Positions 19,198 through 39,750 are shown, numbered from the stretch's first letter. The stretch: DNA of 41,800 nt from Deltaproteobacteria bacterium CG03_land_8_20_14_0_80_45_14 (GCA_002780715.1 PEUO01000121.1:1102-42901), one strand, 5' to 3'. Numbers and translations: made by a program. Notes: a model not told the origin generated them from the letters alone.

Positions 19198-19208
19198 CCC
19201 GCCCCACT

Positions 19209-23085: not shown

Positions 23086-23129
23086 CTCCCATCCCCTAAT
23101 TAGTTGCCACTGAAAAATTGTGTCAACTA

Positions 23130-23205
23130 ATTACACAGATTAATAACTTTACGATTTCGCAATCTTTTTAATCAATGTAATCTGATTTAAAATCTGCGCA
23201 ATCAA
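23130..23205. repeat. Weak 9-nt-periodic word repeat between hemL and the FAH-family gene
   Basis: AATC recurs at 23161, 23170, 23179, 23191 and 23200 (steps of 9, 9, 12, 9), while the complementary word GATT occurs at 23138 and 23153. This looks like a degraded member of the word-palindrome class seen in the following spacers. Confidence 0.45.
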
Positions 23206-23235
23206 TTTCATGATGGATTTTTCAGCATGAATTAA

Positions 23236-23997
23236 TTATTCCTCGGCAACGACCTTATTACTAAGGGTGCCGATCCCTTCGATCACCACATCGATTTGAT
23301 CACCAATGGCCATCGGACCGATTCCAGAAGGCGTCCCTGTGGCGATTGCATCTCCTGGCAGAAGCGTCATGACCCGGGAGATGAAACTCACCAGTTGATG
23401 GGGACCAAAGATGAGGTTCTTTGTATTGGAATACTGACGTCTCTCTCCATTCAGATAACTCGATACATCAAGATGATGGGGGTCAATGTCTGTGACAATC
23501 CAGGGACCAATCGGTGAAAAAGTATCAAACCCCTTCGACAATGTCCACTGACCATCCTTGGGTTGTAAATCCCTGGCGGTTACATCATTCAAACAGGTAT
23601 ATCCAAGGATATAATCCCCTGCCTTTTCCTCTGGAACTTTTTTCGCTACTTTCCCAATCACTACAGCTAACTCAGCTTCATAATCCACCCTCTTGGAAAT
23701 CTTTGGATAGACAATGGCCTCTCCCGGTCCGATGACAGAGGTGGAAGGTTTAATAAAGAGAAGGGGTTCCTTGGGAGGAACCATCTTTACCTCTTCGGCA
23801 TGGTCCCTGTAGTTCAAACCCAAAGCAACAATTTTTGAGGGAAGGCAGGGTGAAAGGAGTTTCACCTCTCCCATTGTTTTCATTCTCGGGGTCAGGTGGA
23901 AGTGGCCAAAAGGATCTCCATCCATTTCACGAATCATACCCTCTTCTATGACGCCCCACCTCACCAATGCTCCATCCTTGTATCTGACAATCTTCAT
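23236..23997 (-). CDS. Fumarylacetoacetate hydrolase family protein
   Basis: This 253-aa FAH-fold protein belongs to the group annotated as 2-hydroxyhepta-2,4-diene-1,7-dioate isomerase or acylpyruvase. The metal-binding motif is seen in KRVDYEAELAVVIGK (two acidic ligands) with a further Asp in YTCLNDVTARDLQ. KIVALGLNYRDHAEE and ATGTPSGIGPM are family signatures. Family members cleave or isomerise beta-diketo acids, or act as oxaloacetate or fumarylpyruvate hydrolases; the substrate here is open. It has no obvious operon partner, with palindromic elements in both flanking spacers. Confidence 0.9.
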   Translation of the reverse strand: MKIVRYKDGALVRWGVIEEGMIREMDGDPFGHFHLTPRMKTMGEVKLLSPCLPSKIVALGLNYRDHAEEVKMVPPKEPLLFIKPSTSVIGPGEAIVYPKISKRVDYEAELAVVIGKVAKKVPEEKAGDYILGYTCLNDVTARDLQPKDGQWTLSKGFDTFSPIGPWIVTDIDPHHLDVSSYLNGERRQYSNTKNLIFGPHQLVSFISRVMTLLPGDAIATGTPSGIGPMAIGDQIDVVIEGIGTLSNKVVAEE

Positions 23998-24070
23998 TTT
24001 GCCTCCCTCTCTATAAATTACATGACCGTGACCGTGTTTCGTGTCCGCTTTAAATCCCCATCATAATTCT

Positions 24071-24150
24071 GTCATTCCCGTGAAAACGGGAATCCAGAAA
24101 TATAGATTCCTGCTGGAGTTTATCCCGTTGAAAAACGGGGCAGGAATGAC
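24071..24150. repeat. Dispersed palindromic element, gtcattcc family, copy 2
   Basis: The ends gtcattcc and ggaatgac are inverted, the inner hairpins are cccgtgaaaacggg and cccgttgaaaaacgggg, and the core has ggaatccag and ctggagttta as in the copy at 5495-5586. It lies between the FAH-family gene and dapB. Confidence 0.85.
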
Positions 24151-24198
24151 ATTTTTAGAGGTAGCCTTGATTATTTGTGCTTGGTTATTGGTAATTCA

Positions 24199-25005
24199 TC
24201 ACCTCTTTAGCCCTAACACATCCTGCATATCGTAAAGGCCATTGGGCTGGTTCACCACCCAGAGGGCTGCTCTGATTGCACCGCGTGCAAAATTATCCCG
24301 GCTGTGGGCACGGTGGATGATCTCCAACCGTTCACCAATCCCCCCGAAGAGCACGGTGTGTTCTCCCACGATATCTCCCGCGCGGATCACCTGCATCCCG
24401 ATCTCTTCTTTTGTCCTCTCACCCACCATCCCCTTCCTGCCATAGACTCCAACCTGACCAAAATCTCGTCCAATGGCGTTGGCAATCAACTCTCCCAATT
24501 TCGCTGCGGTGCCACTGGGCGAATCTTTTTTCAGACGGTGATGGGCTTCAAAAATTTCTATGTCATACTCCGGACCCAAAACCTGGGCAACCTCCTGAAC
24601 GATCCTGAACATGACATTCACTCCTACGCTCATATTGGGCGAGAAAACACATCGAACACTTTTGGAAAGTTCTTTGATTCTTTCAATCTGCTCGGGACTC
24701 AAACCCGTCGTACCAATGACAATGGCCGAACTCGTTTCTTTAGCGAATTCAAGACTCTCTATGGAAGTTTTAGGATTGGTAAAGTTGAAGATGACATCCG
24801 CTCCTGCCTTCTTCAAATCCCCTTCCAAAGGGATATTCATTTTCCCCAATCCGATGACTTCTCCAATATCTTTTCCAATAGATGGATGATCTAATCTCTC
24901 GATGGCACGGTAGAGGGTAATCGAAGGGGTTTCGTTAATGATATGAATAATACGGCTTCCCATCTTCCCGGCTGCGCCAACGACAATGGCTTTGATCTCT
25001 TTCAT
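24199..25005 (-). CDS. dapB: 4-hydroxy-tetrahydrodipicolinate reductase
   Basis: DapB makes tetrahydrodipicolinate with NAD(P)H on the diaminopimelate/lysine pathway. The nucleotide-binding VVGAAGKMGSRI, the catalytic EAHHRLKKDSPSGTA and the FARGAIRAALW ending are all present. The start is at 25005 because GGAGGAGG precedes it; the ATG overlaps the dapF stop as ATGA. An in-frame ATG six codons upstream would place the Shine-Dalgarno inside the gene. Length is 268 aa. It follows dapF directly, with no dapA between them. Confidence 0.96.
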   Translation of the reverse strand: MKEIKAIVVGAAGKMGSRIIHIINETPSITLYRAIERLDHPSIGKDIGEVIGLGKMNIPLEGDLKKAGADVIFNFTNPKTSIESLEFAKETSSAIVIGTTGLSPEQIERIKELSKSVRCVFSPNMSVGVNVMFRIVQEVAQVLGPEYDIEIFEAHHRLKKDSPSGTAAKLGELIANAIGRDFGQVGVYGRKGMVGERTKEEIGMQVIRAGDIVGEHTVLFGGIGERLEIIHRAHSRDNFARGAIRAALWVVNQPNGLYDMQDVLGLKR

Positions 25006-25823
25006 TGATAGGCCTCCTCCCACATCTCAGCTTCATAGATGATGTGGACATCTCCCTCGAAAAAAACTTTCTTTACCTCCTGGCCTTCAATCTCAAAATA
25101 AACCGTCAAAACCTCGCCTCCCCTGGTCTTAATCGATACCGGAGATTTTACCAGGCCCTTGAAGGCAGCAATTAAGGCCGAAGCAACAGCCCCTGTGCCG
25201 CAGGCTAATGTCTCGTTTTCCACGCCTCGTTCATAGGTACGGATCGATAATTGAGAACCCTTCTCCAACTGGATGAAATTTGCATTGGTTCCACTCGGTG
25301 CAAAAAAGGAATGGTATCGAATCGCCCTTCCAATTCGGATGATATCCAACCCTTCAAGATCTTCTACAAAAAGAACGGCATGTGGGACGCCTGTATTAAT
25401 GATTGAGAAAATCTGTTCCTCCCCGTCGATAAAAATGGTTTCATCGAGCTTCAGACCAAATGGTTTGGTCATTTCAAGTTTCACTTTTTTGCCATCCACC
25501 TGAGCAGAGAGGATTCCAGCGAGTGTTTCAAATTTCAGAGAAGGACCGGCGATCCCTTTTAAATGGGCAAACCGGGCAGCACAACGGCCCCCGTTACCGC
25601 ACATTTCCGCTTCGCTTCCATCTGCATTAAAGTAGCGCCACTTGAAATCGGCTTTATTAGACCGTTCGATGAGAATGAGACCATCTGCTCCGACAGAGAT
25701 TCTTCTTCGACAGACTTTCCGAATGAAGTCTTTCAGATGATCCTCTTTCAGGAAGGGTTCCCGATGATCGATGAGGATAAAGTCATTGCCACTGCCGCTC
25801 ATCTTCATAAAAGGAATCTTCAT
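25002..25823 (-). CDS. dapF: Diaminopimelate epimerase
   Basis: This cofactor-independent racemase converts LL- to meso-diaminopimelate for peptidoglycan and lysine. Both catalytic cysteines are visible, in EMCGNGGRCAARFA and LACGTGAVAS. The protein starts MKIPFMKMSGSGNDF at 25823, supported by GGGAGAGG just upstream; an in-frame ATG at 25847 lacks this. Length is 273 aa. It sits between lysA and dapB on the minus strand; a repeat-filled spacer separates it from lysA. Confidence 0.96.
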   Translation of the reverse strand: MKIPFMKMSGSGNDFILIDHREPFLKEDHLKDFIRKVCRRRISVGADGLILIERSNKADFKWRYFNADGSEAEMCGNGGRCAARFAHLKGIAGPSLKFETLAGILSAQVDGKKVKLEMTKPFGLKLDETIFIDGEEQIFSIINTGVPHAVLFVEDLEGLDIIRIGRAIRYHSFFAPSGTNANFIQLEKGSQLSIRTYERGVENETLACGTGAVASALIAAFKGLVKSPVSIKTRGGEVLTVYFEIEGQEVKKVFFEGDVHIIYEAEMWEEAYQ

Positions 25824-25883
25824 GGTGCCTCTCCCAGCCACAAACAAAATTTGGTCTCATGGAAGCATAATCAGACTTTTCGC

Positions 25884-26032
25884 TGAAAAATTCGAAATCC
25901 GAATATCGAAATCCGAAACAAATTCTAATTTCAAATTTTCAAAATTCTAAACATTTTTTATCTGTTTGGGTCCTTCGTATTTTGAACATTAGTGCTTGTT
26001 TCGAATTTCGGATTTCGTGCTTCGGATTTAAA
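25884..26032. repeat. 7-nt-periodic word palindrome between lysA and dapF
   Basis: On the left arm CGAA recurs at 25893, 25900, 25907 and 25914, exactly every 7 bases. On the right arm the complement TTCG recurs at 26000, 26007, 26014 and 26021, also every 7. The centre is AT-rich. The arms contain the same longer word (gaaatccgaa and complement). Confidence 0.85.
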
Positions 26033-26035
26033 ATC

Positions 26036-27298
26036 TTATGATCGAATTAAAAAATCAGGAATCTTTTCCCCCCGAATGAGGTCTTCATAACCCTCTCGCT
26101 TGCGGATCACAAACATCTGGTCATCCCGAACAAGAACTTCTGCAATCCTCGGCCTTGAGTTATAGTTGGTGGACATCGAGAACCCATAAGCGCCAGCACT
26201 CATCACGGCAATCAGTTCACCAGAATGGAGAATTGCCATTTTCCGTCCTTTTGCTAAAAAATCGCTCGACTCGCAGATAGGACCCACCACATCAGCCACA
26301 ATCTCCTCCCTGGTCTCCTCCTTCACGGGAAGGATCTGGTGGTAGGAACCGTAATAACTGGGCCGGACCAGATCATTCATGCCTGCATCCACGATTACGA
26401 ACCGCTTTTCCTCATTCTCTTTGGTGTAAAGAACCTTTGAGACCAAAACTCCTGCATTCCCAACGATGACGCGGCCTGGCTCTAAGATGAGGGTGCAGCC
26501 GAATCCTTGAAGTTCTTCAAGGATGGTGGAGGCGTATTCTACGGGATGGGGAGGTTCTTCATCCTCATAAGTAATTCCAAGGCCACCTCCCAAATCCAGA
26601 TATTGTATCTCCATTCCGTCCTTTCTCAAATTTTCGACCAATTGTTTAAGTCTCCTCAAGGCCTCGATAATAGGCTCTACCTCGACCAATTGGGATCCGA
26701 TATGACAATCAATTCCCACAATCTTTAGATTTGGCAATTGAGAGGCAAGGCGGTAAGCCATCGGTGCGCGAAGGATATCAATCCCAAATTTATTCTGCTT
26801 CAACCCAGTTGAGATATAAGGATGAGTCTTGGGATCGATATCAGGGTTGACGCGGATAGCGATCGCCGCTTTTTTGCCAATTCGGCTTGCCACCTCATTG
26901 ATCACCTGAAGCTCCTGAGAAGACTCTACATTAAACATGAGGATACCCGTTTTCAAGGCATATTCAATTTCATCTTCTCTTTTCCCAACCCCCGAAAATA
27001 CAATCTTTTGTGGGACTGCTCCACCTTTGAGGGCTCGGTAGAGTTCGCCTCCGGAGACCACATCCACTCCTCCACCCAAGTTGATAAAGAGACGGAGAAG
27101 GGCCAGATTCGAATTGGCCTTTGCTGAATAACAGACGAGATGAGGAATCCCTTTGAAGGCATCATCGAAAACAGTGAAATGTCTGACTAAGGTGTGATAG
27201 CTGTAAAGATAGAAGGGGGTGCCCACTTTTTCAGCGATCTCGCGAATTAGAATCCCCTCGCAATAAAGTTGACGATCCTTATATTCAAAAAAATGCAT
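26036..27298 (-). CDS. lysA: Diaminopimelate decarboxylase
   Basis: This PLP-dependent alanine-racemase-fold enzyme makes lysine from meso-diaminopimelate. The PLP Lys is in CYSAKANSNLALL, with HIGSQL, the glycine-rich LDLGGGLG, the CESSDFLA active-site Cys segment and the C-terminal GAYGFSMSTNYNSRPR. The start is set at 27298, where AAGGAG stands 5 bases upstream of the ATG; an in-frame ATG seven codons earlier has no site and lies in a repeat. Length is 420 aa, normal. With dapF, dapB and the lipoprotein gene it forms a same-strand cluster. Confidence 0.97.
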   Translation of the reverse strand: MHFFEYKDRQLYCEGILIREIAEKVGTPFYLYSYHTLVRHFTVFDDAFKGIPHLVCYSAKANSNLALLRLFINLGGGVDVVSGGELYRALKGGAVPQKIVFSGVGKREDEIEYALKTGILMFNVESSQELQVINEVASRIGKKAAIAIRVNPDIDPKTHPYISTGLKQNKFGIDILRAPMAYRLASQLPNLKIVGIDCHIGSQLVEVEPIIEALRRLKQLVENLRKDGMEIQYLDLGGGLGITYEDEEPPHPVEYASTILEELQGFGCTLILEPGRVIVGNAGVLVSKVLYTKENEEKRFVIVDAGMNDLVRPSYYGSYHQILPVKEETREEIVADVVGPICESSDFLAKGRKMAILHSGELIAVMSAGAYGFSMSTNYNSRPRIAEVLVRDDQMFVIRKREGYEDLIRGEKIPDFLIRS

Positions 27299-27302
27299 CC
27301 AA

Positions 27303-27612
27303 TCTCCTTGATTGATCAATGGTCAATGGTCAATTGTTAATGCTAACTGCTATAGTGAACGACCCTGAAAAGTAGTCATTGCGAGAAGCGAAGCGACGTG
27401 GCAATCCCTTGAGATTGCTTCACGGAGTTTACCCTGAGCGAAATGCTTAGATTCTTCGCTTCGCTCAGAATGACAGGAAGCGAAGGGTTCGCAATGACAC
27501 ATGGTGAATGTCAACTTATTTATGTCGTTCACTATAATTGTTCATCGAAAATTGATCCCTGCTTTTTAATCCCTGTTTCATTGCTAATTGCTAATTGATC
27601 ATTGCTAATTGA
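27303..27612. repeat. 7-nt-periodic word palindrome split by an inserted MITE
   Basis: On the left arm TCAAT occurs at 27316, 27323 and 27330, followed in register by TTAAT (27337). On the right arm ATTG occurs at 27580, 27587, 27594, 27601 and 27608, and ATTG/ATCG/ATTG at 27537, 27544 and 27551, all in steps of 7. The arms are complementary in sense. A separate 186-bp element (27351-27536) lies inside. This accounts for the whole 317-base lysA-lipoprotein spacer. Confidence 0.8.
27351..27536. mobile_element. MITE with 13-bp terminal inverted repeats, inserted in a word palindrome
   Basis: Perfect ends tatagtgaacgac (27351-27363) and gtcgttcactata (27524-27536) bound a non-coding 186-bp element. 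Its interior carries further inverted words (gtcattgcga near the left, tcgcaatgac near the right, and gcgaag/cttcgc motifs). The TA dinucleotides at both ends fit a TA-targeting (IS630/mariner-like) transposase acting in trans; that is inference. Confidence 0.75.
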
Positions 27613-27615
27613 TTA

Positions 27616-28725
27616 TTAATAAATGTATTTCACCCTCATTTCTTCTGAGCGAGTGCTTTCGTTTCTTCGGATGGAGTTATCCACTGCTGTGACAGCATAC
27701 TCATATTCTTGCTGTAAAACGACATCTTTATCAAGATAGGTCTCCTTCGTCAGGGGACTCTCATTTAATCTTTTAAATTCTTTCTCCTCAGGTTTCCTTC
27801 GATAGACATAATAACCAAGAAGGTCAGGTTCACGATTCCTTCTCCAATTCAACTCCATCCCATCTTTAAGGGGGATAGCCACCAGATCTACGGGAGCAAC
27901 GGGTGCGATGAGGTCAGTCGGAGTGACCGGGACTCCCAAGGATCCCTTTCCTTCCACATCCGTTTTAACCACTCTTCTCACAGCCCTAACCGAATAGATA
28001 CACCTTTTCTCGTTCTCCACACTCAAATCTGAATAATGGGTCGCTGTCAGCGGTTCTCTATTCAACGGCCTGGTGGAAAATTCCTCATTTTCTAACCTTC
28101 GATAAACATTATAGCCTGATGCTCCTTCCACAGGTTCCCAATAGAGGTCCACCCTTTTATCTCCTCTTTCTCCTTTCACCATTCTTGGGGCTTGGGGTGA
28201 ATAGTCCCAATAGACCGTAACCGGATTCGAAGGAGCACTGGGATATCCTCTCCGATTGATTGAAACCACTTGATAGATATAAACCTTTCTTGCTTCTTGA
28301 TCTTCAAATAAGACCGCCATTCTTTTTTTCTTGGTCTCTTCCTTTCTATCCTCCTTACCCTTTTCCCTGCTAACCTTCTTGCCCTTTTCCTTGCTATCCT
28401 TTTTTCCCTCTTCTTTGCTATCCGACTTCATCTCGTAGACGACCTTCGTTTTCTCTCCGCATCCTCTGCATTCCCCTCCAATGAGAACTCCTTCGGATCT
28501 TAAAATTTGAAAACCTGCCAAATCGGTAAGAGTAGACTTATCTGTATTTTCTTTAGGGGATGTCCATTCTAAAAGGAGGCGACCTTCTCTAGGCGTGGCC
28601 TCAAGGTCAACAATTCTTTTAGGAACAATTGAATCCCAAGGCACAGGAGGACCCTTCTTAGCACAACCAGATGCCACCATTGTAAAAATCATCAAGCACA
28701 AGAATAGACTTTTCTTCGTCTTCAA
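27616..28725 (-). CDS. Lipoprotein with LptM-like start and fibronectin type III-like domains
   Basis: A signal peptide ends in the lipobox VASGC (Cys21), and the mature protein begins CAKKGPPVPW, resembling the short LptM (YifL) lipoprotein motif CGxKGPL. LptM genes often lie next to lysA/dapF, as here. The rest (about 35-369) looks like three fibronectin type III-like beta domains (LEWTSP, YWEPVEGASGYNVYRR and NWRRNREPDLLGYYVYRR are typical strands). Between the first and second comes a Lys/Glu-rich insert of four 8-residue repeats (102-133), preceded by a CRGC pair (86-89). Predicted location: periplasmic face of the outer or inner membrane. A role in LPS-transport assembly is suggested only by the N-terminus and gene order. 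Confidence 0.75.
   Translation of the reverse strand: MKTKKSLFLCLMIFTMVASGCAKKGPPVPWDSIVPKRIVDLEATPREGRLLLEWTSPKENTDKSTLTDLAGFQILRSEGVLIGGECRGCGEKTKVVYEMKSDSKEEGKKDSKEKGKKVSREKGKEDRKEETKKKRMAVLFEDQEARKVYIYQVVSINRRGYPSAPSNPVTVYWDYSPQAPRMVKGERGDKRVDLYWEPVEGASGYNVYRRLENEEFSTRPLNREPLTATHYSDLSVENEKRCIYSVRAVRRVVKTDVEGKGSLGVPVTPTDLIAPVAPVDLVAIPLKDGMELNWRRNREPDLLGYYVYRRKPEEKEFKRLNESPLTKETYLDKDVVLQQEYEYAVTAVDNSIRRNESTRSEEMRVKYIY
28327..28422. repeat. Four 24-bp coding tandem repeats in the lipoprotein gene
   Basis: The units encode DSKEEGKK, DSKEKGKK, VSREKGKE and DRKEETKK (residues 102-133), highly charged and probably helical or disordered. Repeat number could vary between strains by slippage. Confidence 0.8.
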
Positions 28726-28751
28726 CCTATTCCTCCATTCAAATTTGAGAA

Positions 28752-28890
28752 GGTTATCAGAATATCAGGTTATCAGGTTGCGGATATCAGATTATCAGTG
28801 CATCAGGTAAATTAATTTGAAATTGTTTTCACCCTATATCCTGATATCCCGATTCTCGGCATCCTGATTTCCTGATGACCTGGTATCCTT
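28752..28890. repeat. 8-nt-periodic word palindrome between yggS and the lipoprotein gene
   Basis: On the left arm ATCAG occurs at 28756, 28764, 28772, then 28786, 28794 and 28802 (steps 8, 8, 14, 8, 8). On the right arm CTGAT-type words occur at 28841, 28849 (one change), 28864, 28872 and 28880 (one change), with steps 8, 15, 8, 8. The gap in the middle of each arm is mirrored. Confidence 0.88.
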
Positions 28891-28897
28891 ATTTTCT

Positions 28898-29578
28898 TTA
28901 CTTTCGTGGTCCAAAGATCGCTGTCCCTACACGAACATAGGTGGCTCCTTCCTCAATAGCGATCTCAAAGTCATTGGACATTCCCATGGAGAGGTCTTTC
29001 ATTGGAATCCTCTCTTTTACCATTCTCTCCTTTAATGCTCGAAGTGCAATATAATAAGGTCGACTCATTTCTGGCGAATCAAAATAAGGGGGCATGGTCA
29101 TCAACCCTTCTAAGAAGAGATGGTTAAGGTTTTGAATCCTCCTGGCAAGACTCAACACCCTCTCCTCATCTGCCCCAAATTTAGCGGCTTCCTTAGAGAG
29201 ATTTACTTCAATCATCACTTTAATCGCTTGATTCGCCTGTTCAGCCCTCCGATTCAATTCCTCAGCCAGGGGAATGCTGTCTAAAGAGTGTATCATATCG
29301 AAGAGGCGAATTGCATATTTCACCTTATTCGACTGAAGGTGGCCGATAAAGTGCCAGGAGACAAGCCGTCCGATCTCTTCAATCTTTTTTTGCGCCTCCT
29401 GGATATAATTTTCGCCCAGGATAGAGACCCCTGCTCCAATCGCCTCCTTGATTCGAGCTGCCTCTACCGTCTTGGAGACTGCAACCAACTTGATCTCATT
29501 CGGATCTCTCCCTACTTTTCGAGCCGCCTTTTCTATCCTCTCCATCACCCTTAATAAATTTTCTTTGATCTCTGACAT
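28898..29578 (-). CDS. yggS: YggS/PROSC family pyridoxal phosphate homeostasis protein
   Basis: This 226-aa single-domain alanine-racemase-like barrel holds and transfers PLP and balances vitamin B6 and amino-acid pools. The PLP Lys is in LVAVSKTV; GENYIQEA, WHFIGHLQSNK, GLMTMPPYF, LSMGMSNDFEIAIEEG and VRVGTAIFG are family signatures. It is often near cell-division or proline genes; here it lies between maf and the lipoprotein gene, with word-palindrome spacers on both sides. Confidence 0.95.
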   Translation of the reverse strand: MSEIKENLLRVMERIEKAARKVGRDPNEIKLVAVSKTVEAARIKEAIGAGVSILGENYIQEAQKKIEEIGRLVSWHFIGHLQSNKVKYAIRLFDMIHSLDSIPLAEELNRRAEQANQAIKVMIEVNLSKEAAKFGADEERVLSLARRIQNLNHLFLEGLMTMPPYFDSPEMSRPYYIALRALKERMVKERIPMKDLSMGMSNDFEIAIEEGATYVRVGTAIFGPRK

Positions 29579-29601
29579 CTCCTCAATCCGCCAACCCCGA
29601 A

Positions 29602-29660
29602 GTCATTGAGTCATTAGTCATTAAGTCATTTATTGACCCAATGACCCATTGACCTAATCA
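29602..29660. repeat. 8-nt-periodic word palindrome between maf and yggS
   Basis: On the left arm GTCATT occurs at 29602, 29610, 29617 and 29625 (steps 8, 7, 8). On the right arm TGACC occurs at 29634, 29642 and 29650 (steps of 8), followed in register by aatcatt. The arms are complementary and nearly contiguous. Confidence 0.85.
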
Positions 29661-29714
29661 TTATTAGGGTATTTCCATTCTGCAATCTGCAATCTCTCCG
29701 AGCCAGAGGGCTCT

Positions 29715-30362
29715 CTAAGCCGGAGGCCGCATTCCGCACCCCCCTCTTATCCTCCCCCCACAAGTGGGGGAGGAAAAAGGTGGGGGGAAAATAATGGCAT
29801 TTAGACGATTAAGCATTTCAATCAACTCACATAGGGGAAGGCCCACTACATTGGTATAGGATCCTCGGATCGATTCGATCATAAAAGAACCGATTCCCTG
29901 GATGGCGTATCCCCCTGCTTTATCAAAGGGTTCTCCCGTTTGGACATACCACTCCATCTCTGCAGGAGTCAGGTTTTTCACCTTCACCACTGTCTGTACT
30001 GCTTCTTTATCACCCTTCCCTCTTTCTAAATGCCAAACCGAAAATCCGGTCAATACCCAATGTTCCTGACCACTTAGGCAATGCAATATTTCCATGGCAT
30101 CTTCTCGGTTTTTCGGTTTCCCTAAAATGGACCCATTAATATAAACAATGGTATCCGCAGCAATCACCCAGCGATCAGGATATCCCCTCGCTACATCTCT
30201 GGCTTTGGCTTCAGCTAACCGAATGACATGTTCTTGAGGAGATTCTTTCTGAACAAAATCCTCCATCAACCCGCTTGGGATTACCTCGAAATCAAAACCC
30301 ACTTGTTTTAGTAATTCATATCGGCGGGGAGACTTAGAGGCCAGAATAAGTCTGTTGTTCAT
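29715..30362 (-). CDS. maf: Maf/YhdE family nucleoside triphosphate pyrophosphatase
   Basis: Maf enzymes hydrolyse non-canonical or m5-type NTPs (dTTP/UTP group) to monophosphates. The N-terminal ILASKSPRRYELL, the catalytic VIAADTIVYINGSILGKP, the WVLTGFSVW segment and GGYAIQGIGS are present. The usual family end falls near LCELIEMLNRLNAI. The last 20 or so residues (rich in Pro, Gly and Arg) come from a C/G-rich palindromic repeat at 29738-29790 that has been read through to a chance TAG. The tail is unlikely to matter for catalysis. Confidence 0.94.
   Translation of the reverse strand: MNNRLILASKSPRRYELLKQVGFDFEVIPSGLMEDFVQKESPQEHVIRLAEAKARDVARGYPDRWVIAADTIVYINGSILGKPKNREDAMEILHCLSGQEHWVLTGFSVWHLERGKGDKEAVQTVVKVKNLTPAEMEWYVQTGEPFDKAGGYAIQGIGSFMIESIRGSYTNVVGLPLCELIEMLNRLNAIIFPPPFSSPTCGGRIRGGCGMRPPA
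29738..29790. repeat. Degraded C/G-rich palindrome forming the 3' end of maf
   Basis: Left runs of C (29739-29744, 29754-29759) pair with right runs of G (29765-29769, 29781-29786) around tcctcccccc and gggggagga. It resembles the perfect hairpin at 11567-11611 in composition and layout. Confidence 0.7.
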
Positions 30363-30822
30363 TTATTAAAAACTAAAGGAATCCAATAGGTTTGTCAAGT
30401 TTGAAATGGGAGATTTCTTCGCTTTGAAAAATATTAGGGGATTTCAAAAAAAGTTCAGCAATCCCTGAGAAGCTGTGAAAAAATCACTCAAAGCCTCAAG
30501 GTCGGGCGGAGATGTCGCAGAAGTTTTACAGCGGCGCCTTATGACGTCAAGCAGAAGAAACGAACGCTCCACCCTTTAGGACGGTGTGCATATCGCCGCT
30601 TCCTTCGACAAGCTCAGGACACTGAGTTTATCGAAGTGCCTCTCGACAAGCTCAAGGCCCTGAGTTTATCGAAGGGCAGGGTCAACCCTGAGGCTTTTGG
30701 TAATACTTAAAGCTCAGTCCTAATTGACACCGAAGGACTGGGCAAGCCCTAACCTTTAGGCCAGGGAGTCGAAGGGTTGACTCTTAAGTTCAAATCTGAT
30801 ACTTAAATAGAAAGGGCGCTGA
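30363..30822. repeat. Composite palindromic block between maf and rfaE2
   Basis: No gene was found in these 460 bases, which lie between divergent genes. An outer inverted repeat (aaagcctca at 30490-30498, complement at 30689-30697) encloses two tandem imperfect hairpins built from cgacaagctca and ctgagtttatcga (30603-30636 and 30642-30675). The same word family recurs at 34733-34794. To the right, 30700-30780 has further short palindromes (aggactgggc and related), and a possible promoter precedes rfaE2. Confidence 0.7.
30777..30805 (+). promoter_or_regulatory. Weak candidate promoter of rfaE2-lon
   Basis: TTGACT at 30777-30782 and TACTTA at 30800-30805 are 17 bases apart, directly upstream of the rfaE2 ribosome site. 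The -35 is good and the -10 poor; it lies at the edge of the repeat block. Confidence 0.3.
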
Positions 30823-31311: not shown

Positions 31312-33652
31312 AAAAGATCTGTTATCCCTTCCGGAAACACTTCCTCTGCTTCCTGTCAGAGATATTGTTGTTTTTCCCTATATGGTTCTTCCTCTTTTTG
31401 TGAGTCGGGAAAAATCGATCAAATCTTTAGAAGAAGCCCTTTCTAAAGACCGACTGATCTTCCTCGTCGCTCAGAAAAAACTTTCTGAAGAAGACCCTTC
31501 TCCCAAGGATCTCTACCGAGTGGGGACGGTGGCCGTCATCATGAAGATGCTCAAGCTGCCCGATGGAAAGGTCAAGATCCTTGTCCAGGGACTCTCCAAG
31601 GCTTCCATCAAAGAAACCTTCCAGACAACGCCCTATCCCCTCGTAAGAGTGGAGAATATTAAAGATCCTTTCATCACGGAGATCACCCTTGAAACAGAAG
31701 CTTTGATGAGAACTGTCAGAGAACAATTGGAGAGGATCGTCTCCTATGGCAAACTCCTCTCCCCAGATATGATGTTTATCCTCGAAAGCGTTGACGATCC
31801 AGGGAGATTAGCTGACTTGGTAGCCTCCAACTTGGAACTCACTGTTGAAAAAGCCCAGGAGATTTTAGAAATCCTCGACCCTGTGGAAAGGCTGAAGACC
31901 CTGAATGAACTTCTTGAAAAAGAGGTCCAGGTCCTCACCATGCAGGCCAAGATTCAGTCGCAGGCCAAAGAGGAAATCACCAAAACGCAGAAGGAATATT
32001 TTCTTCGAGAGCAGATGAGGGCGATTCGAAGCGAACTGGGTGAGGTGGACGAACGCGCCGAAGAAATCAAAACCCTCCAGCAGAAGATCAAAAAGTCAAA
32101 GATGCCCAAAGAGGTTGAGAAGGAGGCCAGACGGGAACTAGAGCGATTGGAGCAGATGCATCCAGATGCCGCAGAGGCCTCTATGGTGAGGACTTATCTC
32201 GACTGGTTGATCGAAATGCCCTGGTCAATATCGACGACCAATAATCTCGATCTTCATAAGGCAAAAAATGTTTTGGATGAGGACCATTACGATTTGGAAA
32301 AAGTGAAAGAACGAATTTTAGAATACCTGAGCGTCCATAAATTGAAAAAGAAGATGAAAGGACCTATCCTCTGCTTCATAGGACCTCCTGGGGTTGGAAA
32401 AACCTCCTTGGGCAGATCGATCGCCAGAGCCTTGGGAAGAAAATTTGTAAGAATCTCTTTGGGAGGGATAAGAGATGAGGCTGAGATTCGGGGCCACCGT
32501 CGCACTTATGTCGGCGCCCTGCCAGGTCGAATCATCCAATCAATTAAACAGGCCGGAAGCAACAATCCGGTTTTCATGATGGATGAGGTGGATAAGATCG
32601 GCATCGATTTTCGTGGAGATCCAGCCTCTGCTCTCTTAGAGGTTCTCGATCCAGAACAGAACAATGCCTTCAGCGACCACTATCTCAATGTCCCCTTCGA
32701 CCTCTCTGGGGTAATGTTTATCACCACAGGAAATTTGACCGATCCCATTCCCTCTACCCTCAAAGATCGGATGGAGGTGATTAACCTTCCCGGATACACC
32801 GATCTGGAGAAATTGAGGATTGCACGGACCTTTCTCCTTCCCCGACAGATGGATGAAAATGGAATCAGCCCAAAGATGCTCGAAATTTCTGATAAAGCCA
32901 CCCTTCTAATCATCTCACAGTATACTCAGGAGGCAGGCCTTCGGAACCTCGAAAGGGAATTGGCTTCCATCTGCAGGAAGGTAGCAAGGCGAATAGCAGA
33001 AGGGAAGAAAGAGAAGACCAAAGTCAATACAAGGAACCTTCATCAATTCTTGGGACCTCCCGCCTACTTGCCAGATGAGGAACAGAAACGTAATGAGGTG
33101 GGTGTGGCCACAGGCCTGGCTTGGACAGAGACCGGTGGTGAAATTCTTCATGTCGAGGCCTCCACCACTCCGGGCAAAGGCTCCCTCATCCTCACCGGTC
33201 ATCTTGGAGATGTAATGAAGGAGTCGGCGCAGGCTGCCCTCACCTATGTACGATCTAAAGGGAAGACCTATCGAATCAATCCCAATGCTCTCAACAATAA
33301 AGAAATACACATCCATGTTCCTGCGGGCGCTATCCCGAAGGATGGACCTTCTGCTGGAATTACCATGGCGGTTACCCTCTTCTCTGCCCTCACGGGTATC
33401 CCTGTCAAAAAAGATGTGGCCATGACTGGCGAGATCACTCTGCGCGGGAGTGTCCTCCCAGTCGGAGGCCTGAAGGAAAAGGCCCTTGCCGCCCTTAGAA
33501 ACAAAATCAAAGATGTGATCATTCCCTATCTGAACAAGAAGGACCTCATCGATCTTCCCCTATACGTTCGAAAAAAGATAAACTTTATCCCGGTCAAACA
33601 TATGGATGAAGTTTTGCGAATCGCCCTTTCCAACAAAAGAGTTAAGAGTTAG
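31295..33652 (+). CDS. lon: ATP-dependent protease Lon
   Basis: Lon degrades misfolded and regulatory proteins in the cytoplasm. The N-terminal substrate domain begins [21 protein letters not shown]. The AAA+ domain has Walker [10 protein letters not shown] (about 363-371) and Walker B in [11 protein letters not shown]. The C-terminal protease domain has the Ser-Lys dyad: Ser686 in PKDGPSAG and Lys729 in [10 protein letters not shown]. At 785 aa it matches E. coli Lon (784 aa). The start overlaps rfaE2, so translation is coupled. Lon is also the protease that usually destroys antitoxins such as HigA. Confidence 0.97.
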
Positions 33653-33663
33653 GGGTTCGGTAG

Positions 33664-33705
33664 GGAACGCCTGCCTGTCCGGTAGGCAGGGTTTGAAACC
33701 GTTCC
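33664..33705. repeat. Nested palindrome between lon and thiL
   Basis: The outer arms ggaacg (33664-33669) and cgttcc (33700-33705) enclose an inner hairpin cctgcct (33670-33676) / aggcagg (33684-33690) with the loop gtccggt. There is no T-tract, so terminator function is doubtful. Confidence 0.7.
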
Positions 33706-33721
33706 GTACAAGAGTTCGGAG

Positions 33722-34729
33722 TTGAAAGCAAAAGAAAAGGACTTGAGAGAGATTGGTGAGTTCGGGCTCATCAATCGAATCCGAAAATGGATAACCTCTT
33801 CTGATCCTGCATTGGTCCAGGGGATCGGTGATGATGTGGCGGTCATCAAGATGGGGGCGAAAGCCTTGCTCGTTACCACCGACATCCTTATTGAAGGCAT
33901 CCATTTCGATCGGTCCTGGCTCGATCCCTACCAACTTGGGAGAAAAAGCCTCGCGGTCAATCTCAGTGATATTGCTTCAATGGGAGGGATCCCCAAATAC
34001 TTCCTCATCTCCATTGGCCTTCCTAAGAACCTTCCTCTTTCTTTTATCTCCTCGTTCTATCTTGGCTTAAAAAAGGAGGCGAAACAATTTCGGGTGGAAC
34101 TGATTGGGGGGGACACCTCCCTTTCTCAAAAAATCGTCATCAATATCTGCCTTTTAGGAGAAGGAAGAAAAAAAGATCTCCTTTTTAGAAAAGGGGCAAG
34201 GGTTGGGGATGATCTCTTTGTCTCTGGAACACTAGGCGATGCCGCTCTGGGACTAAAAATTCTCCAAGAAAAAGGGAAAATAATAGGAGCTGAGGGATTG
34301 ATCAAAAAACATCTCTCTCCCTGCCCAAGAGTCGAATTGGGTCAAACCATTGCCAAACATCATTGGGCGACTGCTATGATCGATGTCAGTGATGGTCTGT
34401 TGATCGACACCTCTCACCTCTTACAAGAGAGCGGAGTAGGAGCTCAGGTATGGGAGAATCGAATTCCTCTTTCCAGGCTCTATCGGAAATGGGTTCATCC
34501 TTTTTTAAAAGATTTTTTTCAGCTTGCCCTTTCCGGAGGTGAGGATTATGAACTCCTCTTCACTGCCCCCTCCGAGATGAGGGAGAGGATACCTTATCTC
34601 TCCCGTTCGCTCAAGATCCCGATCACCCATATTGGAGAAATCCTCCCTAAAAAAGAGGGGCTCCACATTATCCGAGAAGATGGAAAAAATTATTCTCCCT
34701 CTCGTTTGGGGTTTGAACATTTTAAATGA
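33722..34729 (+). CDS. thiL: Thiamine-monophosphate kinase
   Basis: ThiL phosphorylates thiamine monophosphate to the active diphosphate cofactor. The AIR-synthase-like fold is marked by IGEFGLINRIRKW, QGIGDDVAVIK, DILIEGIHFDRSW, KSLAVNLSDIASMGG, LIGGDTS and SGGEDYELLFT. At 335 aa it is of typical length. No ATG lies in the right place; TTG at 33722 gives the family N-terminus and follows GGAG closely. A palindrome separates it from lon. No other thiamine genes are nearby. Confidence 0.93.
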   Translation: MKAKEKDLREIGEFGLINRIRKWITSSDPALVQGIGDDVAVIKMGAKALLVTTDILIEGIHFDRSWLDPYQLGRKSLAVNLSDIASMGGIPKYFLISIGLPKNLPLSFISSFYLGLKKEAKQFRVELIGGDTSLSQKIVINICLLGEGRKKDLLFRKGARVGDDLFVSGTLGDAALGLKILQEKGKIIGAEGLIKKHLSPCPRVELGQTIAKHHWATAMIDVSDGLLIDTSHLLQESGVGAQVWENRIPLSRLYRKWVHPFLKDFFQLALSGGEDYELLFTAPSEMRERIPYLSRSLKIPITHIGEILPKKEGLHIIREDGKNYSPSRLGFEHFK

Positions 34730-34732
34730 TGG

Positions 34733-34794
34733 TTCGACAAGCTCACCATGATTACACTTCAGTATGCTCTGAACATCATCCTGAGCTTGTCGAA
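34733..34794. repeat. Dispersed palindrome with ttcgacaagctca ends
   Basis: Perfect 13-bp inverted arms ttcgacaagctca (34733-34745) and tgagcttgtcgaa (34782-34794) begin right after thiL. The element belongs to the same word family as the block at 30603-30675. Its right end is followed at once by the AGGAG used to translate the next gene. Confidence 0.9.
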
Positions 34795-34805
34795 GGAGCA
34801 ACCCA

Positions 34806-35807
34806 ATGAAGACCTATACAAACGAAATTAAAGAGAATGACTCTGTGGAGTCCTTCTTTCTGGTTGAAGAGAAATCTTCTGGGATCACCAAAACTGGAAA
34901 CGCCTACTTGAAATTGAAATTGGTGGACCGTTCCGGAGAAATCGAAGGCAGGATTTGGACATTGGTGGAAAACTATGCCAAATCCTTTGGAAAAGATGAC
35001 TTTGTCCATGTGATGGGAAAGGCAGTCTCCTTTCAGGAGCATCTTCAATTGAACATCACCCATATCGAAAGAGTGGGCGAAGAAGAAATTCTTTTTTCAG
35101 ACTTTTTTCCCATGGCAGAAAAAAATATTGACGAAATGTTCCGGTCCCTTTTAGAAATCACTCAACAGATTAAAAACCCACACCTCAGCCAACTTCTCCA
35201 ACTCTTCTGGGAGGATGAATCCTTTATCAAACTTTTTAAAATGGCCCCTGCATCCAAATGGCTCCATCACAATTATTTAGGGGGTCTGTTAGAGCACACC
35301 CTCTCCATAGTGCAACTGGTATTAAAAAATGCTTCCCATTACAATGGGTTGAACTTGGACCTTTTGCTCACAGCTTCAATTCTCCACGACCTTGGTAAAG
35401 TGGATGAGCTCTCTTACCAACGATCCTTTGCCTATTCAGATGAAGGCCGACTCCTCGGTCATATACTCCTCGGGATAGAAAGGGTGGAGGATAAAATCCG
35501 CCAACTAACTGATTTCCCAAAAGACCTTTCAACGCTGCTAAAGCACCTCCTCCTCAGTCACCATGGTCAATATATTTGGGGGTCGCCCAAAAGGCCGATG
35601 ACCTTGGAAGCTGTGATGCTCCATTACCTAGATGACATGGATGCAAAAATCAATGGGATTAAACAATTTATAAAAAAACAGGTCCCAAAAGGGTCCAGGT
35701 GGAGCGCCTATCACCGTATATTTGAACAATATTTTTATGTGTCCAACCTTTTGGAGAAGATGGAACTACCCGATAAGATTGAGAAAGACGAATTGGAAGA
35801 GGAATGA
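34806..35807 (+). CDS. YhaM-like 3'-5' exoribonuclease family protein (OB fold plus HD domain)
   Basis: This 333-aa protein has an N-terminal OB-fold nucleic-acid-binding domain (about 1-95, KLKLVDRSGEIEGRIWTL, DFVHVMGKA) and a C-terminal HD metal-dependent domain (about 155-300) with LEHTLSIV, the metal motif ILHDLGK and LLSHHGQYIWGSPKRP. This is the YhaM/CBF1 architecture known as a 3'-5' exonuclease in Firmicutes; homologues occur widely in Desulfobacterota. Its Shine-Dalgarno (AGGAG, 34795-34799) is appended to the end of a repeat element. RNA turnover or DNA repair are the likely roles; activity is inferred from the family. Confidence 0.88.
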   Translation: MKTYTNEIKENDSVESFFLVEEKSSGITKTGNAYLKLKLVDRSGEIEGRIWTLVENYAKSFGKDDFVHVMGKAVSFQEHLQLNITHIERVGEEEILFSDFFPMAEKNIDEMFRSLLEITQQIKNPHLSQLLQLFWEDESFIKLFKMAPASKWLHHNYLGGLLEHTLSIVQLVLKNASHYNGLNLDLLLTASILHDLGKVDELSYQRSFAYSDEGRLLGHILLGIERVEDKIRQLTDFPKDLSTLLKHLLLSHHGQYIWGSPKRPMTLEAVMLHYLDDMDAKINGIKQFIKKQVPKGSRWSAYHRIFEQYFYVSNLLEKMELPDKIEKDELEEE

Positions 35808-35824
35808 TTAAATCTTCCATTTTC

Positions 35825-35853
35825 TTGACAAACCGCTCCTCCATTATTATCTT
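35825..35853 (+). promoter_or_regulatory. Candidate promoter of hrcA-grpE-dnaK
   Basis: TTGACA at 35825-35830 and TATCTT at 35848-35853 are 17 bases apart, about 70 bases before hrcA. No CIRCE-type inverted repeat (ttagcactc with its complement 9 bases apart) is seen around it. Confidence 0.5.
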
Positions 35854-35925
35854 AAGAGCACAAAAAGAATTTTATTTTAGATGCTTAGTTTTAGCTTTTT
35901 CGCATTAAAAAAGGGCAAGGATTAA

Positions 35926-36966
35926 ATGGATTTTTTCCCTTCCGAAAGAATGAGGCGGGTTTTAGAGATTGTGATTGAAGATTACATTCTCAGTCCAGAA
36001 CCGGTGGGTTCAAGGACGATTTCTAAAAAATCGAACCTCAACCTAAGCCCCGCTACCATACGGAATATTATGTCGGATTTGGAAGATCTGGGTTTACTTT
36101 CTCAACCTTACACCTCAGCAGGTAGGATACCTACGGAGAAGGGACTTCGATTTTACATCGATTCTATTATCAATGTCCACGAACTCAGTGAACTGGAGCA
36201 ACAGGAGATTCGATCCAAATATTTGAGTCATCTCATTGAGGGACCGGACCTATTCAGGGAGACGTCTCGAATCCTTTCTTCATCTTCTCATTATTTAGGA
36301 ATTGTTTGGACACCCCGAATGAGTTCGGTCGTGCTTCAACATATTGAGTTTGTGAAATTAAGAAGACATTTGGTGCTTACTATTTTAGTGAGCACAACCG
36401 GTTTGGCTCACAACCGGATTATCGAAATGGAGGAAAATTTTTCGCAATCCGAATTAGATGATCTTTCAGATTATTTGAATAGTTTCCTGACCGGCCTCAC
36501 CCTTTACCAAGTGAGAGAGAAACTTCTGGAGCAGATGAGAGTGGCAAAGAATGCTTATGATCGTCTGCTTGAGCAGGCGCTCAAATTAGGAGAGAAAGCT
36601 TTTTCCTCCATCGATGACACTGATGTTTTTATCGAGGGAAAGACAAATATTCTGAACGAGCTTGAATTCAGTAATGTTTCAAGAATGACAGATCTCTTTC
36701 GAACTTTTGAGGAAAAAGCCACCATGGTCAAACTCTTAGATAAATTTATGGATCCCAAAGGGGTTCAAATTGCGATCGGTTCTGAGAGCCAGGTCCAAGA
36801 AATGGAGACTTGTAGCTTAGTGACCTCCACTTACGGGTGCGCAGGACAGGTTTGGGGAGCCTTGGGAGTCATCGGACCACGGAGGATGAACTATTCCAAA
36901 ATCATCCCCTTGGTGGATTATTCTGCAAGGCTGCTGACAGAGATCTTAGATAGGCATTTTCATTAA
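35926..36966 (+). CDS. hrcA: Heat-inducible transcription repressor HrcA
   Basis: HrcA represses chaperone operons by binding CIRCE elements, with GroEL keeping it active. The N-terminal winged helix is clear (RRVLEIVIEDYILSPEPVGS, SPATIRNIMSDLEDLGLL, PYTSAGRIPTEKGLRFYID), followed by the GAF-like dimer domain and the C-terminal GALGVIGPRRMNYSKIIPLV. Length is 346 aa. It leads the operon with grpE 18 bases downstream and then dnaK, a common order. If it controls this operon, its binding site must be degenerate or elsewhere. Confidence 0.96.
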   Translation: MDFFPSERMRRVLEIVIEDYILSPEPVGSRTISKKSNLNLSPATIRNIMSDLEDLGLLSQPYTSAGRIPTEKGLRFYIDSIINVHELSELEQQEIRSKYLSHLIEGPDLFRETSRILSSSSHYLGIVWTPRMSSVVLQHIEFVKLRRHLVLTILVSTTGLAHNRIIEMEENFSQSELDDLSDYLNSFLTGLTLYQVREKLLEQMRVAKNAYDRLLEQALKLGEKAFSSIDDTDVFIEGKTNILNELEFSNVSRMTDLFRTFEEKATMVKLLDKFMDPKGVQIAIGSESQVQEMETCSLVTSTYGCAGQVWGALGVIGPRRMNYSKIIPLVDYSARLLTEILDRHFH

Positions 36967-36984
36967 AAACGAGGAGTCGTCTTT

Positions 36985-37608
36985 ATGGAAGGATCAGAGA
37001 AAAAAGAGATCCCTGTTGCCTTGGAGCCATCTCCGGAAGAGAATGAAGGGGAAACATCAGAAATATTGATAGAGGAAAACCATCCAAAAAGTAAGAAAAA
37101 AAAAGAAGACAAGGAGATTCAGGAACTGAAAAAGAAGCTGGAGGAAAAAGAGAAAGAGGCGAAGGAGAATTATGACCGTCTGTTGAGAACGGCAGCCGAT
37201 TTTGAGAACTATAAAAAGAGGGCGGCGAGAGAAAAAGAAGACTGGACCAAATTTGCCAATAAAGATTTCATCAAAGCGATTCTCCCTTTTATTGATAATC
37301 TGGAGAGGGCTGTCAATCACGCTCAAAAGGTAGCGGACACCGGGGTATTAATCGAAGGGGTTCGATTGACCATTCAACAACTCCTCCAGAACCTTAACCA
37401 GTTTGGTCTTTTTTCCTTTGAATCGGTTGGGAAACCTTTTGATCCCGCCGTGCATGAAGCCATGTTGGTCGTGGAAACAGACAAGCATGAACCCAATCAG
37501 GTCGTCGAGGAGTTCCGGAAGGGCTACCTCTTGAATGGCCGACTCTTAAGACCGGCAACCGTTTCTGTGTCAAAACCCCCGGAAAAAGAAGTTCGGACAC
37601 CAGAATGA
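36985..37608 (+). CDS. grpE: Nucleotide exchange factor GrpE
   Basis: GrpE releases ADP from DnaK. This 207-aa form has a disordered, acidic/Lys-rich N-terminal stretch (about 1-45), a long coiled coil (about 45-110, containing YDRLLRTAADFENYKKRAARE) and the C-terminal beta domain ending FDPAVHEAMLVVE and GYLLNGRLLRPATVSVSK. GAGGAG stands 8 bases before the ATG. dnaK follows after 33 bases. No dnaJ follows dnaK in this window. Confidence 0.96.
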   Translation: MEGSEKKEIPVALEPSPEENEGETSEILIEENHPKSKKKKEDKEIQELKKKLEEKEKEAKENYDRLLRTAADFENYKKRAAREKEDWTKFANKDFIKAILPFIDNLERAVNHAQKVADTGVLIEGVRLTIQQLLQNLNQFGLFSFESVGKPFDPAVHEAMLVVETDKHEPNQVVEEFRKGYLLNGRLLRPATVSVSKPPEKEVRTPE

Positions 37609-37641
37609 TTTTGAATAATACTTTAAGGAGGGGAAATTAAA

Positions 37642-39558
37642 ATGGCTAAGACAATAGGAATTGATTTGGGAACAACGAACTCAGTCGTGGCAATCATGGA
37701 GGGAGGGGATCCTGCCGTTATCGCCAACCCGGAAGGGAGTCGAACGACTCCATCTGTTGTTGCCTTTACAGATAAAGGGGAGAGGGTTGTAGGACAGATT
37801 GCGAAACGTCAAGCGATCACCAACTCTGAAAATACAATCTTCTCGATCAAGCGACTGATGGGAAGAAAATTTACAGACGGGGAGGTTCAGAAAGACTTGA
37901 AGATCCTTCCCTATAAAATCGTCGAAAATAAGAATGGGGATGCATGGGTCAGGGCCAGGGATAAGGAGTATAGCCCCCCTGAAATCTCTGCCTTTGTTCT
38001 CCAGAAGATGAAGGAGACGGCAGAAGCCTACCTCGGCGAGAAGGTGACCGATGCGGTGATTACCGTTCCAGCTTATTTTAACGATAGTCAACGCCAGGCC
38101 ACGAAGGATGCGGGAAGGATAGCAGGTTTGAATGTCATTCGAATTATCAATGAACCGACAGCCGCCTCCCTGGCTTATGGTTTGGACAAGAAGAAGGATG
38201 AAAAGGTCGCTGTCTTCGACCTGGGGGGTGGAACTTTTGATATCTCCATTCTCGAATTGGGGGAAGGTGTCTTCGAGGTCAAATCGACCAATGGAAATAC
38301 CCATCTGGGTGGAGATGACTTTGACCAACATGTCATCGACTATTTAGCGAATGAATTCAAAAAAGATCAGGGGATTGATCTGAGAAAAGATCGAATGGCT
38401 CTTCAAAGATTGAAGGAGGCTGCGGAAAAGGCAAAGATTGAACTCTCTAACATGATGGAGACGGACATCAATCTACCCTTTATCACTGCCGACGCCTCAG
38501 GGCCAAAACATCTGAACATGAAATTGACACGGGCAAAATTGGAAAATTTGACAGGAGATCTCATTGAAATGGTTGAGGGACCATGCCGCCAGGCCCTTGC
38601 CGATTCTGGACTTTCAGCCAGGGACATTGATGAGGTGATCCTCGTTGGCGGAATGACAAGGATGCCAAAAGTTCAGGAGAAAGTGAAACAAATTTTTGGG
38701 AAAGAGCCAAACAAGAGCGTCAACCCTGATGAGGCCGTAGGTATTGGCGCGGCGATTCAGGCTGGAGTCCTGAAGGGTGAGGTGAAGGATGTGCTCCTCT
38801 TGGATGTCACCCCGCTCTCCCTTGGGATTGAAACGCTCGGTGGTGTCTTTACCAAACTGATTGAAAGAAACACTACCATTCCATCAAAAAAGAGCCAGAT
38901 TTTTTCTACAGCATCGGATAACCAACCTGCTGTGACGATTCATGTCCTCCAGGGCGAAAGAGAAATGGCCGCTGATAACAAAACCCTCGGTCAATTTGAA
39001 TTGGTAGGGATTCCAACCGCTCCCCGAGGCATTCCCCAAATCGAAGTGACCTTTGATATTGATGCCAATGGAATCGTCCATGTCGCGGCGAAAGATCTTG
39101 GAACAGGGAAAGAACAATCTATAAAAATCACTGCCTCGAGTGGCCTTCACGAAGAGGAGATCAAAAAGATGGTGAGGGATGCCGAGGCTCATGCAGCAGA
39201 TGATAAGAAGAGACGGGAGTTGGCCGAAGCGAGAAACCATCTCGATACACTCATCTACACAACAGAGAAATCCTTGAAGGATTACGGCGACAAGATCGAT
39301 TCCGGAGATAAACAGAATATCGAAGATGCGATGGCCAAGGCGAAGAAAGCGATGGAGTCAAACGACCCGGATGCCATCAAATCTGCCCAAGAAGAGCTCA
39401 CCCGTTCTTCCCACAAATTGGCAGAGGCGATGTATGCAAAAGCTTCTCAAAAAGGAGCTGCTGAGCCCGGTGCTGAAGCTGGCCCTCAAGAAGGCCCTCG
39501 ACAAAAAGCGCAGGAGGATGTGGTCGATGCGGATTTCGAGGATGTTGGTAAAAAATAA
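37642..39558 (+). CDS. dnaK: Molecular chaperone DnaK (Hsp70)
   Basis: This 638-aa Hsp70 has an N-terminal ATPase domain ([48 protein letters not shown]), the conserved linker [16 protein letters not shown], the substrate-binding beta domain and the alpha lid ending in an Ala/Gly/Glu-rich tail with [10 protein letters not shown]. That terminal acidic motif is typical of bacterial DnaK. GGAGG precedes the start. A strong intrinsic terminator follows, so this is the last gene of the heat-shock operon. Confidence 0.98.
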
Positions 39559-39580
39559 CTGGGTTGTGTCTCTCATGAAA

Positions 39581-39610
39581 AGGGCGAAGGGGAACCTTCG
39601 CTCTTTTTGT
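39581..39610 (+). terminator. Intrinsic terminator after dnaK
   Basis: A 10-bp stem (agggcgaagg at 39581-39590 with ccttcgctct at 39595-39604, one G-U pair) and the loop ggaa are followed by tttttg. It lies 22 bases after the dnaK stop. Confidence 0.88.
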
Positions 39611-39625
39611 ATGGGCGCCAGTTCC

Positions 39626-39750
39626 TGGAATAATGGAATGATGTGAGGAGGAAGCTTCGCTTCCTTCAATTCCTAAACTCTTTGCAAAGGCGGTGTTTTG
39701 CATTCAGTTATTTCCCCAATATTCCACCATTCCAATATTCCAATATTCCA
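39626..39750. repeat. 8-nt-periodic word palindrome between dnaK and ftsY
   Basis: On the left arm TGGAAT occurs at 39626 and 39634. On the right arm ATTCCA occurs at 39721, 39729, 39737 and 39745, all in steps of 8. The arms are complementary. The intervening 80 bases contain a small gaagcttc palindrome. Confidence 0.85.

Follow-up and report, generated by a model that had tools for sequence, protein, structure and literature searches.

Phased inverted arrays in the window

The window, as the whole analysed stretch is called here, is 41,800 nt of DNA (C51:1102-42901; PEUO01000121.1) from Deltaproteobacteria bacterium CG03_land_8_20_14_0_80_45_14, a single incomplete metagenome-assembled genome (MAG) of 3.24 Mb in 253 contigs. 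The nearest lysA relatives, at 86-90% identity, are MAGs labelled Syntrophaceae. The spacers of interest adjoin hemL, a fumarylacetoacetate-hydrolase (FAH) relative, dapB, dapF, lysA, yggS, maf, dnaK, ftsY and a gene called 'fn3', a working label only, for which Pfam gave a single match under the curated cut-off. Several of these spacers carry arrays of a short word in strict phase, answered by arrays of the complementary word, and we propose that the arrays may be members of several families of dispersed DNA elements kept by recognition of the word core.

An initial annotation had described six such sites. Each spacer was shuffled 150 times with dinucleotides preserved and scored for phase alone and for phase plus inversion. 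Five of the six sites proved real by this test, as none of the 150 shuffles reached either score at any of them. The confirmed words are CGAAATC with a period of 7 between dapF and lysA, TCAAT with 7 between lysA and fn3, ATCAGG with 8 between fn3 and yggS, GTCATT with 8/7 between yggS and maf, and TGGAAT with 8 between dnaK and ftsY (Table 1). The weaker AATC repeat with a period of 9 at 23130-23205, in the hemL-FAH spacer, was not significant against its dinucleotide shuffles (phase p = 0.13).

Arrays across the genome

The genome-wide statistics rest on gene limits from crude open reading frame calls, and the p values given throughout are uncorrected, with several tests drawn from one data set. 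In 592 kb of the genome, intergenic segments phased at lag 7 numbered 71 compared with 1.6 in shuffles, those at lag 8 numbered 41 compared with 1.6, and lag 9 showed a weaker excess (12 compared with 1.1). Coding DNA was at background level for lags 7 and 8, consistent with the restriction to intergenic DNA noted for the window. In 1.05 Mb of the genome, 516 spacers were no longer than 520 nt (margins counted), and 153 of them (~30%) held an array; with a stricter threshold, the best lag was 7 in 78 spacers and 8 in 43. An inverted partner, defined as a reverse-complement array in the same spacer with a score of at least 14, was present for 28.6% of the arrays, compared with 0.5% when arrays were matched against other phased spacers. 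Phased inverted words are therefore a property of the genome and not of the window only. With arrays in ~30% of the short spacers, the process that produces or maintains them shapes a large part of the non-coding DNA of this genome.

Words as families

The initial annotation had the word differing at each site. This was correct within the window, but the main words each form a family with more sites in the genome; TGGAAT, ATCAGG, TCAAGG, CGAAATC, GCATAG and others recur. The annotation was right that the sites do not derive from a single copied sequence. Copies of TGGAAT and ATCAGG have the word and the layout in common, without a common unit order, and did not align past the word grammar. The unit-order test of common descent gave no signal within families. 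It is not decisive alone, since it gave none for CGAAATC either, whose copies are shown by alignment to be homologous.

Members of the CGAAATC family are homologous palindromes of ~145 bp. The 1.05 Mb contain 17 full copies, with which the dapF-lysA element aligned end to end. Two copies enclose one identical second palindrome, CCTGTTAA...TTAACAGGG, at the same point (L175:7020 region and L007:3700-3990), which suggests a copied composite or a preferred insertion point. One CGAAATC element was found in an Omnitrophota genome (that of L129), with 72-76% identity to the copies here over ~140 nt (E 8e-15); the copy may reflect misbinning, though its contig is 159 kb long. The gene downstream of it is presumably similar to adenylosuccinate synthetase, as judged by eye only. 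The family signature CGAAGCAC was also present on six IMG/VR contigs, at least four of which show both arms. Genes on these contigs encode a portal and a capsid protein (L379), a terminase (L381), a tail tape measure protein (L382) and a head protein (L383). One family is thus found in another phylum and on phage contigs; a plasmid search with the CGAAATC element gave no match.

A further IMG/VR element carries the same octamer in the opposite polarity, with three ATATTCCA, 88-127 bp (mostly 105-115) and three TGGAATAT. The interiors of these elements are homologous and their spacing is nearly fixed (loci L386, L387, L389, L402, L404, L406, L415, L416 and others), and their contigs have genes for an SU10-type portal, a terminase and a head protein.

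In a survey of the phylum, 148 genomes were searched for exact three-unit arrays, with the reversed pattern as control. Arrays of TGGAATNN were found in 14 genomes, ATCAGGNN in 6, GTAARGB in 7 and TTCGGAN in 19. The control gave zero for TGGAATNN and ATCAGGNN and one genome for TTCGGAN; the GTAARGB count has little weight because its control was equally frequent. TGGAAT and TTCGGA occur in the same genomes more often than expected (9 shared compared with 1.8, p 2e-6). In distant families of the phylum, the polarity of TGGAAT was identical in 7 of the 7 listed pairs, two of which are one site, and its position 7 was again a purine. Exact arrays were rare outside the phylum.

Two other families each occupy ~20 spacers of the 1.05 Mb: CAGCAATTCTCGGTGA...TCACCGAGAATTGCTG, of 100-200 bp with a modular interior, and CCCCCCTTTA...TAAAGGGGGG. 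Their loci include L043, L158, L011, L020, L026, L051 and many others.

Orthologous spacers in relatives

The claim that the architecture is conserved despite the change of word was borne out in relatives, whose orthologous spacers keep the layout but have other words. In the maf-hemL cluster, 30 of 53 orthologous spacers were phased and 19 of them also had an inverted partner, compared with 2.5% and 0.5% in shuffles. Between fn3 and lysA, the words are TCAATTA/TCAATGG in the window, CAGTAAG in L066, GCGGATT in L069 and L073, and AGTTCGG in L074 and L109, with AGATTTC (L067, L071) and ATCAATT (L122, L127) in further relatives. Three different words are thus found among the window and its congeners L066 and L069. 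In this spacer L065 has no array, and that of L068 is weak. The fn3-lysA elements of L069 and L073, which belong to different genera, are visibly homologous; therefore, an element can also persist by inheritance over a long time. Several relatives have an array that overlaps the final LysA codons.

Elements also lie in operon junctions that are tight in congeners. The maf and yggS genes overlap or are at most 47 nt apart in congeners, compared with 140 bp and an array here. The dnaK-ftsY element is present in G001 and G003 and not in G004. In most other family members this spacer contains a TTTGATTTT...GTTA box, which in our reading is possibly promoter-like, and the carriers of the element are without it. 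The architecture of a spacer can thus persist while its sequence family is exchanged.

Unit grammar

The grammar was determined on 32 unique inverted TGGAATRN sites with 64 arms from three genera; the numbers for other words are small. TGGAAT was on the 5' arm in all 32 sites, 59 of the 64 arms had 3-4 units, and the loop varied from 10 to 149 nt. Core positions 2-5 were near-invariant, with 8 changes in 684 unit positions, and position 7 was a purine. Units of ATCAGG and TCAAGG follow the same plan of six fixed letters, a purine-biased letter and a free letter. Neighbouring TGGAATRN units shared spacer letters less often than permuted ones (0.327 compared with 0.434, SD 0.032). Opposite arms were also less alike than permuted (p < 0.001 at position 7, p 0.004 at position 8), and the same was found for ATCAGG (p 0.004), weakly for TCAAGG (0.066), and not for GCATAG or TTCGGA.

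Templated slippage had been put forward as one of two explanations, the other being a recognised structure. Slippage with hairpin template switching would generate the words and copy them to the other arm without any recognition. The strict register fits such a process, as do unit differences between orthologues (three units compared with two at dnaK-ftsY, and one extra outer unit in L332 compared with L335), and the fn3-lysA words can be lined up in a chain of nearly single steps, TGCGGAT - TTCGGAG - TTCAAAG - TTCAGAT. However, unit similarity does not decay along arrays: a unit is no closer to its neighbour than to the unit three places away (0.70 compared with 0.66; paired difference -0.009, SEM 0.011), and in TGGAAT arrays the similarity of neighbours is below chance. 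The order of units is not mirrored between the arms, the copy number is narrow, and one degenerate word recurs in distant families. Slippage is already strained by these results and we regard it as unlikely; of the two explanations, a recognised structure fits better.

The arms could instead pair in mRNA, where co-transcribed genes meet, and serve in termination, processing or transcript stability. Arrays were indeed commoner between co-directional genes (72 of 197) than elsewhere (11 of 60, p 0.008). A role in transcript stability or translational coupling has been proposed for the cyanobacterial short tandemly repeated repetitive (STRR) sequences (PMC2670836). Among sense-strand mismatches, A.A exceeded T.T (37 compared with 18), a difference from which base composition was not separated. 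However, G.U mismatches were not preferred over A.C (38 compared with 37; wider set 72 compared with 56), and folding energies of the two strands showed no advantage for the sense one (p 0.19), so that the proposed hairpin formation in transcripts found no support in these checks. Loops extend to 149 nt, and Rfam gave no match at the sites. It is thus improbable that the arrays are RNA hairpins.

A third possibility is that the arrays are host regulatory sites, bound by global regulators such as IHF or HU and selected site by site to control the adjoining genes, without mobility. Host regulation has been proposed for the paired sites of Geobacter metallireducens, which are very similar to those here (PMC2700814), and the near-invariant cores would fit it. 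Three TGGAAT sites are also kept at orthologous places across genera, although these pairs were detected because both copies are intact. On the other hand, congeners differ in the word that they carry at a given spacer, the many words per genome would require many regulators, and one family occurs in phage contigs and another phylum. We consider host regulation a doubtful explanation.

Proposed nature of the elements

The arrays may represent short intergenic elements, dispersed and non-autonomous, that fall into several families and act at the DNA level; they would be of the STRR and Geobacter paired-site kind and kept by core recognition. We would give this reading about an even chance of being correct. 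In the proposed plan, an element would consist of two facing arrays, each with a few units of a family-specific 7-, 8- or 9-nt word, around a free loop, the 5' arm carrying the word and the 3' arm the complementary word. The fixed core of a unit would be one contact for a putative word-specific DNA-binding factor, and the other one or two positions would be free. The units would then be independent draws from a recognised degenerate motif. Elements would spread by copying into new spacers, and words would be swapped between species at the same spacer. Instability would remove arrays whose neighbouring units are identical or whose arms match perfectly, and the surviving neighbours and arms would therefore be unlike.

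Several observations weigh against core-recognised dispersed elements. We know of no binding protein for the word cores, and no copying enzyme was found. The avoidance of shared spacer letters, strong for TGGAAT and supported for ATCAGG, was weak for TCAAGG and absent in both 7-nt words tested. TGGAAT copies have no common unit order, so recent copying is not visible there, and the 36 TGGAAT site records showed neither a target duplication nor a conserved outer end. The dnaK-ftsY cores are partly decayed in the congeners G001 and G003.

In a more specific form, which we put forward only tentatively, the elements would be a class defined by grammar, in which unrelated octamer cores follow one rule, each recognised by its own member of a putative family of array-binding proteins, partly moved between bacteria by phages and exchanged word for word at one spacer. 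The rule would be six fixed letters, a purine-biased letter and a free letter, with few units per arm, the word on the 5' side and spacer letters that stay unlike from unit to unit and from arm to arm. The measured rules of phase, polarity, core and spacer make the hunt for a binding or copying protein practical.

Coordinates and other features of the window

Table 1. Arms and elements located in the window
Feature	Position	Strand	Description	Basis
CGAAATC element, dapF-lysA spacer	25888..26034	.	palindrome ~145 bp	shuffle test
CGAAATC 5' arm	25888-25918		7 nt	
TTCGGAT 3' arm of CGAAATC element	25999-26029			
TCAATGG arm, lysA-fn3	27311..27342	.	7 nt	Tandem Repeats Finder (TRF), shuffle test
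ATTGCTA/ATTGATC arm, lysA-fn3	27556..27617	.	7 nt	TRF, shuffle test
ATCAGGNN arm, fn3-yggS	28751..28798	.	8 nt	shuffle test
CCTGATNN arm, fn3-yggS	28836..28889	.	8 nt	shuffle test
GTCATT arm, yggS-maf	29600..29630	.	8/7 nt	shuffle test
TGACCCAA arm, yggS-maf	29634..29658	.	8 nt	shuffle test
TGGAATRN 5' arm, dnaK-ftsY	39626..39643	.	8 nt	sequence, TGGAATRN family member
NYATTCCA 3' arm, dnaK-ftsY	39716..39750	.	8 nt	sequence
Weak sixth site, hemL-FAH	23086..23235	.	lineage-specific extra DNA	not counted as member

The sixth site was rejected as a family member, being a single copy without relatives. At this site ~130 bp of extra DNA lies between hemL and the FAH gene, with TAATTA on either side and inverted ends CTGAAAAAT. 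Without it the spacer would be 18 nt, matching the 17-19 nt of relatives. No second copy of the extra DNA was found in the genome or in 20 relatives, except for a 21-nt match at chance level. A separate palindromic repeat, GTCATTGCGAGAAGCGAAGCG...CGCAATGACA, is nested between the arms of the TCAAT site at 27375-27500.

The window also contains a gene for a REP-associated tyrosine transposase (RAYT; REP, repetitive extragenic palindrome) with a DnaA-C-like domain at 18213-19184 (+). Its flanks (~18128-18177 and 19181-19200) carry TTGGGGTCAAACCTTCAA in two direct copies and one inverted copy. Similar genes in relatives have GGGGTCA...TGACCCC ends and unrelated neighbours.

Comparison with known systems

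REP and REPIN sequences resemble the sites described here in being intergenic palindromes with many copies in families. If the arrays were REP-like, they could be moved by the RAYT transposases of the genome, which has ten Y1_Tnp matches, one of which, in the window, passes the REP_Tyr_transpos cut-off. However, most of the genes inspected have inverted ends of their own, of the GGGGTCA...TGACCCC type, and REPs are without word arrays. RAYT mobilisation was rejected on the flanks, since a TGGAAT element stands beside only one truncated gene among ~28 distinct genes, and we consider it very unlikely. Miniature inverted-repeat transposable elements (MITEs) are small non-autonomous insertions, and in eukaryotic foldback elements the arms are built from short tandem repeats. 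The 36 records of the TGGAAT family lack the terminal inverted repeat and target-site duplication of MITEs; homologous dispersed copies together with copies on foreign replicons were found for the CGAAATC family only.

The arrays are the same kind of object as the Geobacter paired sites, which are closest, and then the STRRs and the TAACTGA repeats. Classes 1-3 of Geobacter metallireducens have three to five tandem 7-8-mers per site, in opposite-strand pairs at variable distance and dozens per genome (Aklujkar 2009, PMC2700814). Insertion sequences lie at a fixed distance from them, and the binding of IHF or HU is a guess of the authors (PMC2700814). The plan of TGGAATRN, with six fixed, one half-fixed and one free letter, is also that of the class 1 octamer GTTGCTYN, and the class 3 word MTYCTGA resembles the word CCTGAT of this genome (PMC2700814). 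The unit number (3-4 in 59 of 64 TGGAAT arms) and the opposite-strand pairing at variable distance (32 sites, loop 10-149 nt) agree with that description, whereas the words are different and one genome here holds many more families.

Cyanobacterial STRRs are degenerate, hairpin-capable intergenic heptamers, and a title cited in PMC2670836 describes the intergenic regions of close relatives as 'highly variable but structured'. The arrays here share degenerate tandem heptamers in spacers and several words per genome with them, and differ in also having 8- and 9-nt words, systematic inverted arms, a fixed polarity and another phylum as host. The RNA-active hairpin suggested for STRRs has no counterpart here in G.U or folding asymmetry, which is an indirect test. 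TAACTGA direct repeats, known from Beggiatoaceae, Cyanobacteria and Bacteroidetes with indels in 7-nt steps, are likewise phase-locked intergenic heptamers common to distant lineages (PMC4679880). They are almost never inverted and mostly lie just upstream of start codons, in contrast to the inverted arms that fill the spacer here. To what the available parts of the three reports describe, the present analysis adds word differences at orthologous spacers, tests of grammar and polarity, including spacer avoidance, and copies on phage contigs and in another phylum. Cyanobacterial STRRs, Geobacter paired sites and Beggiatoa heptamers are thereby joined into one testable class.

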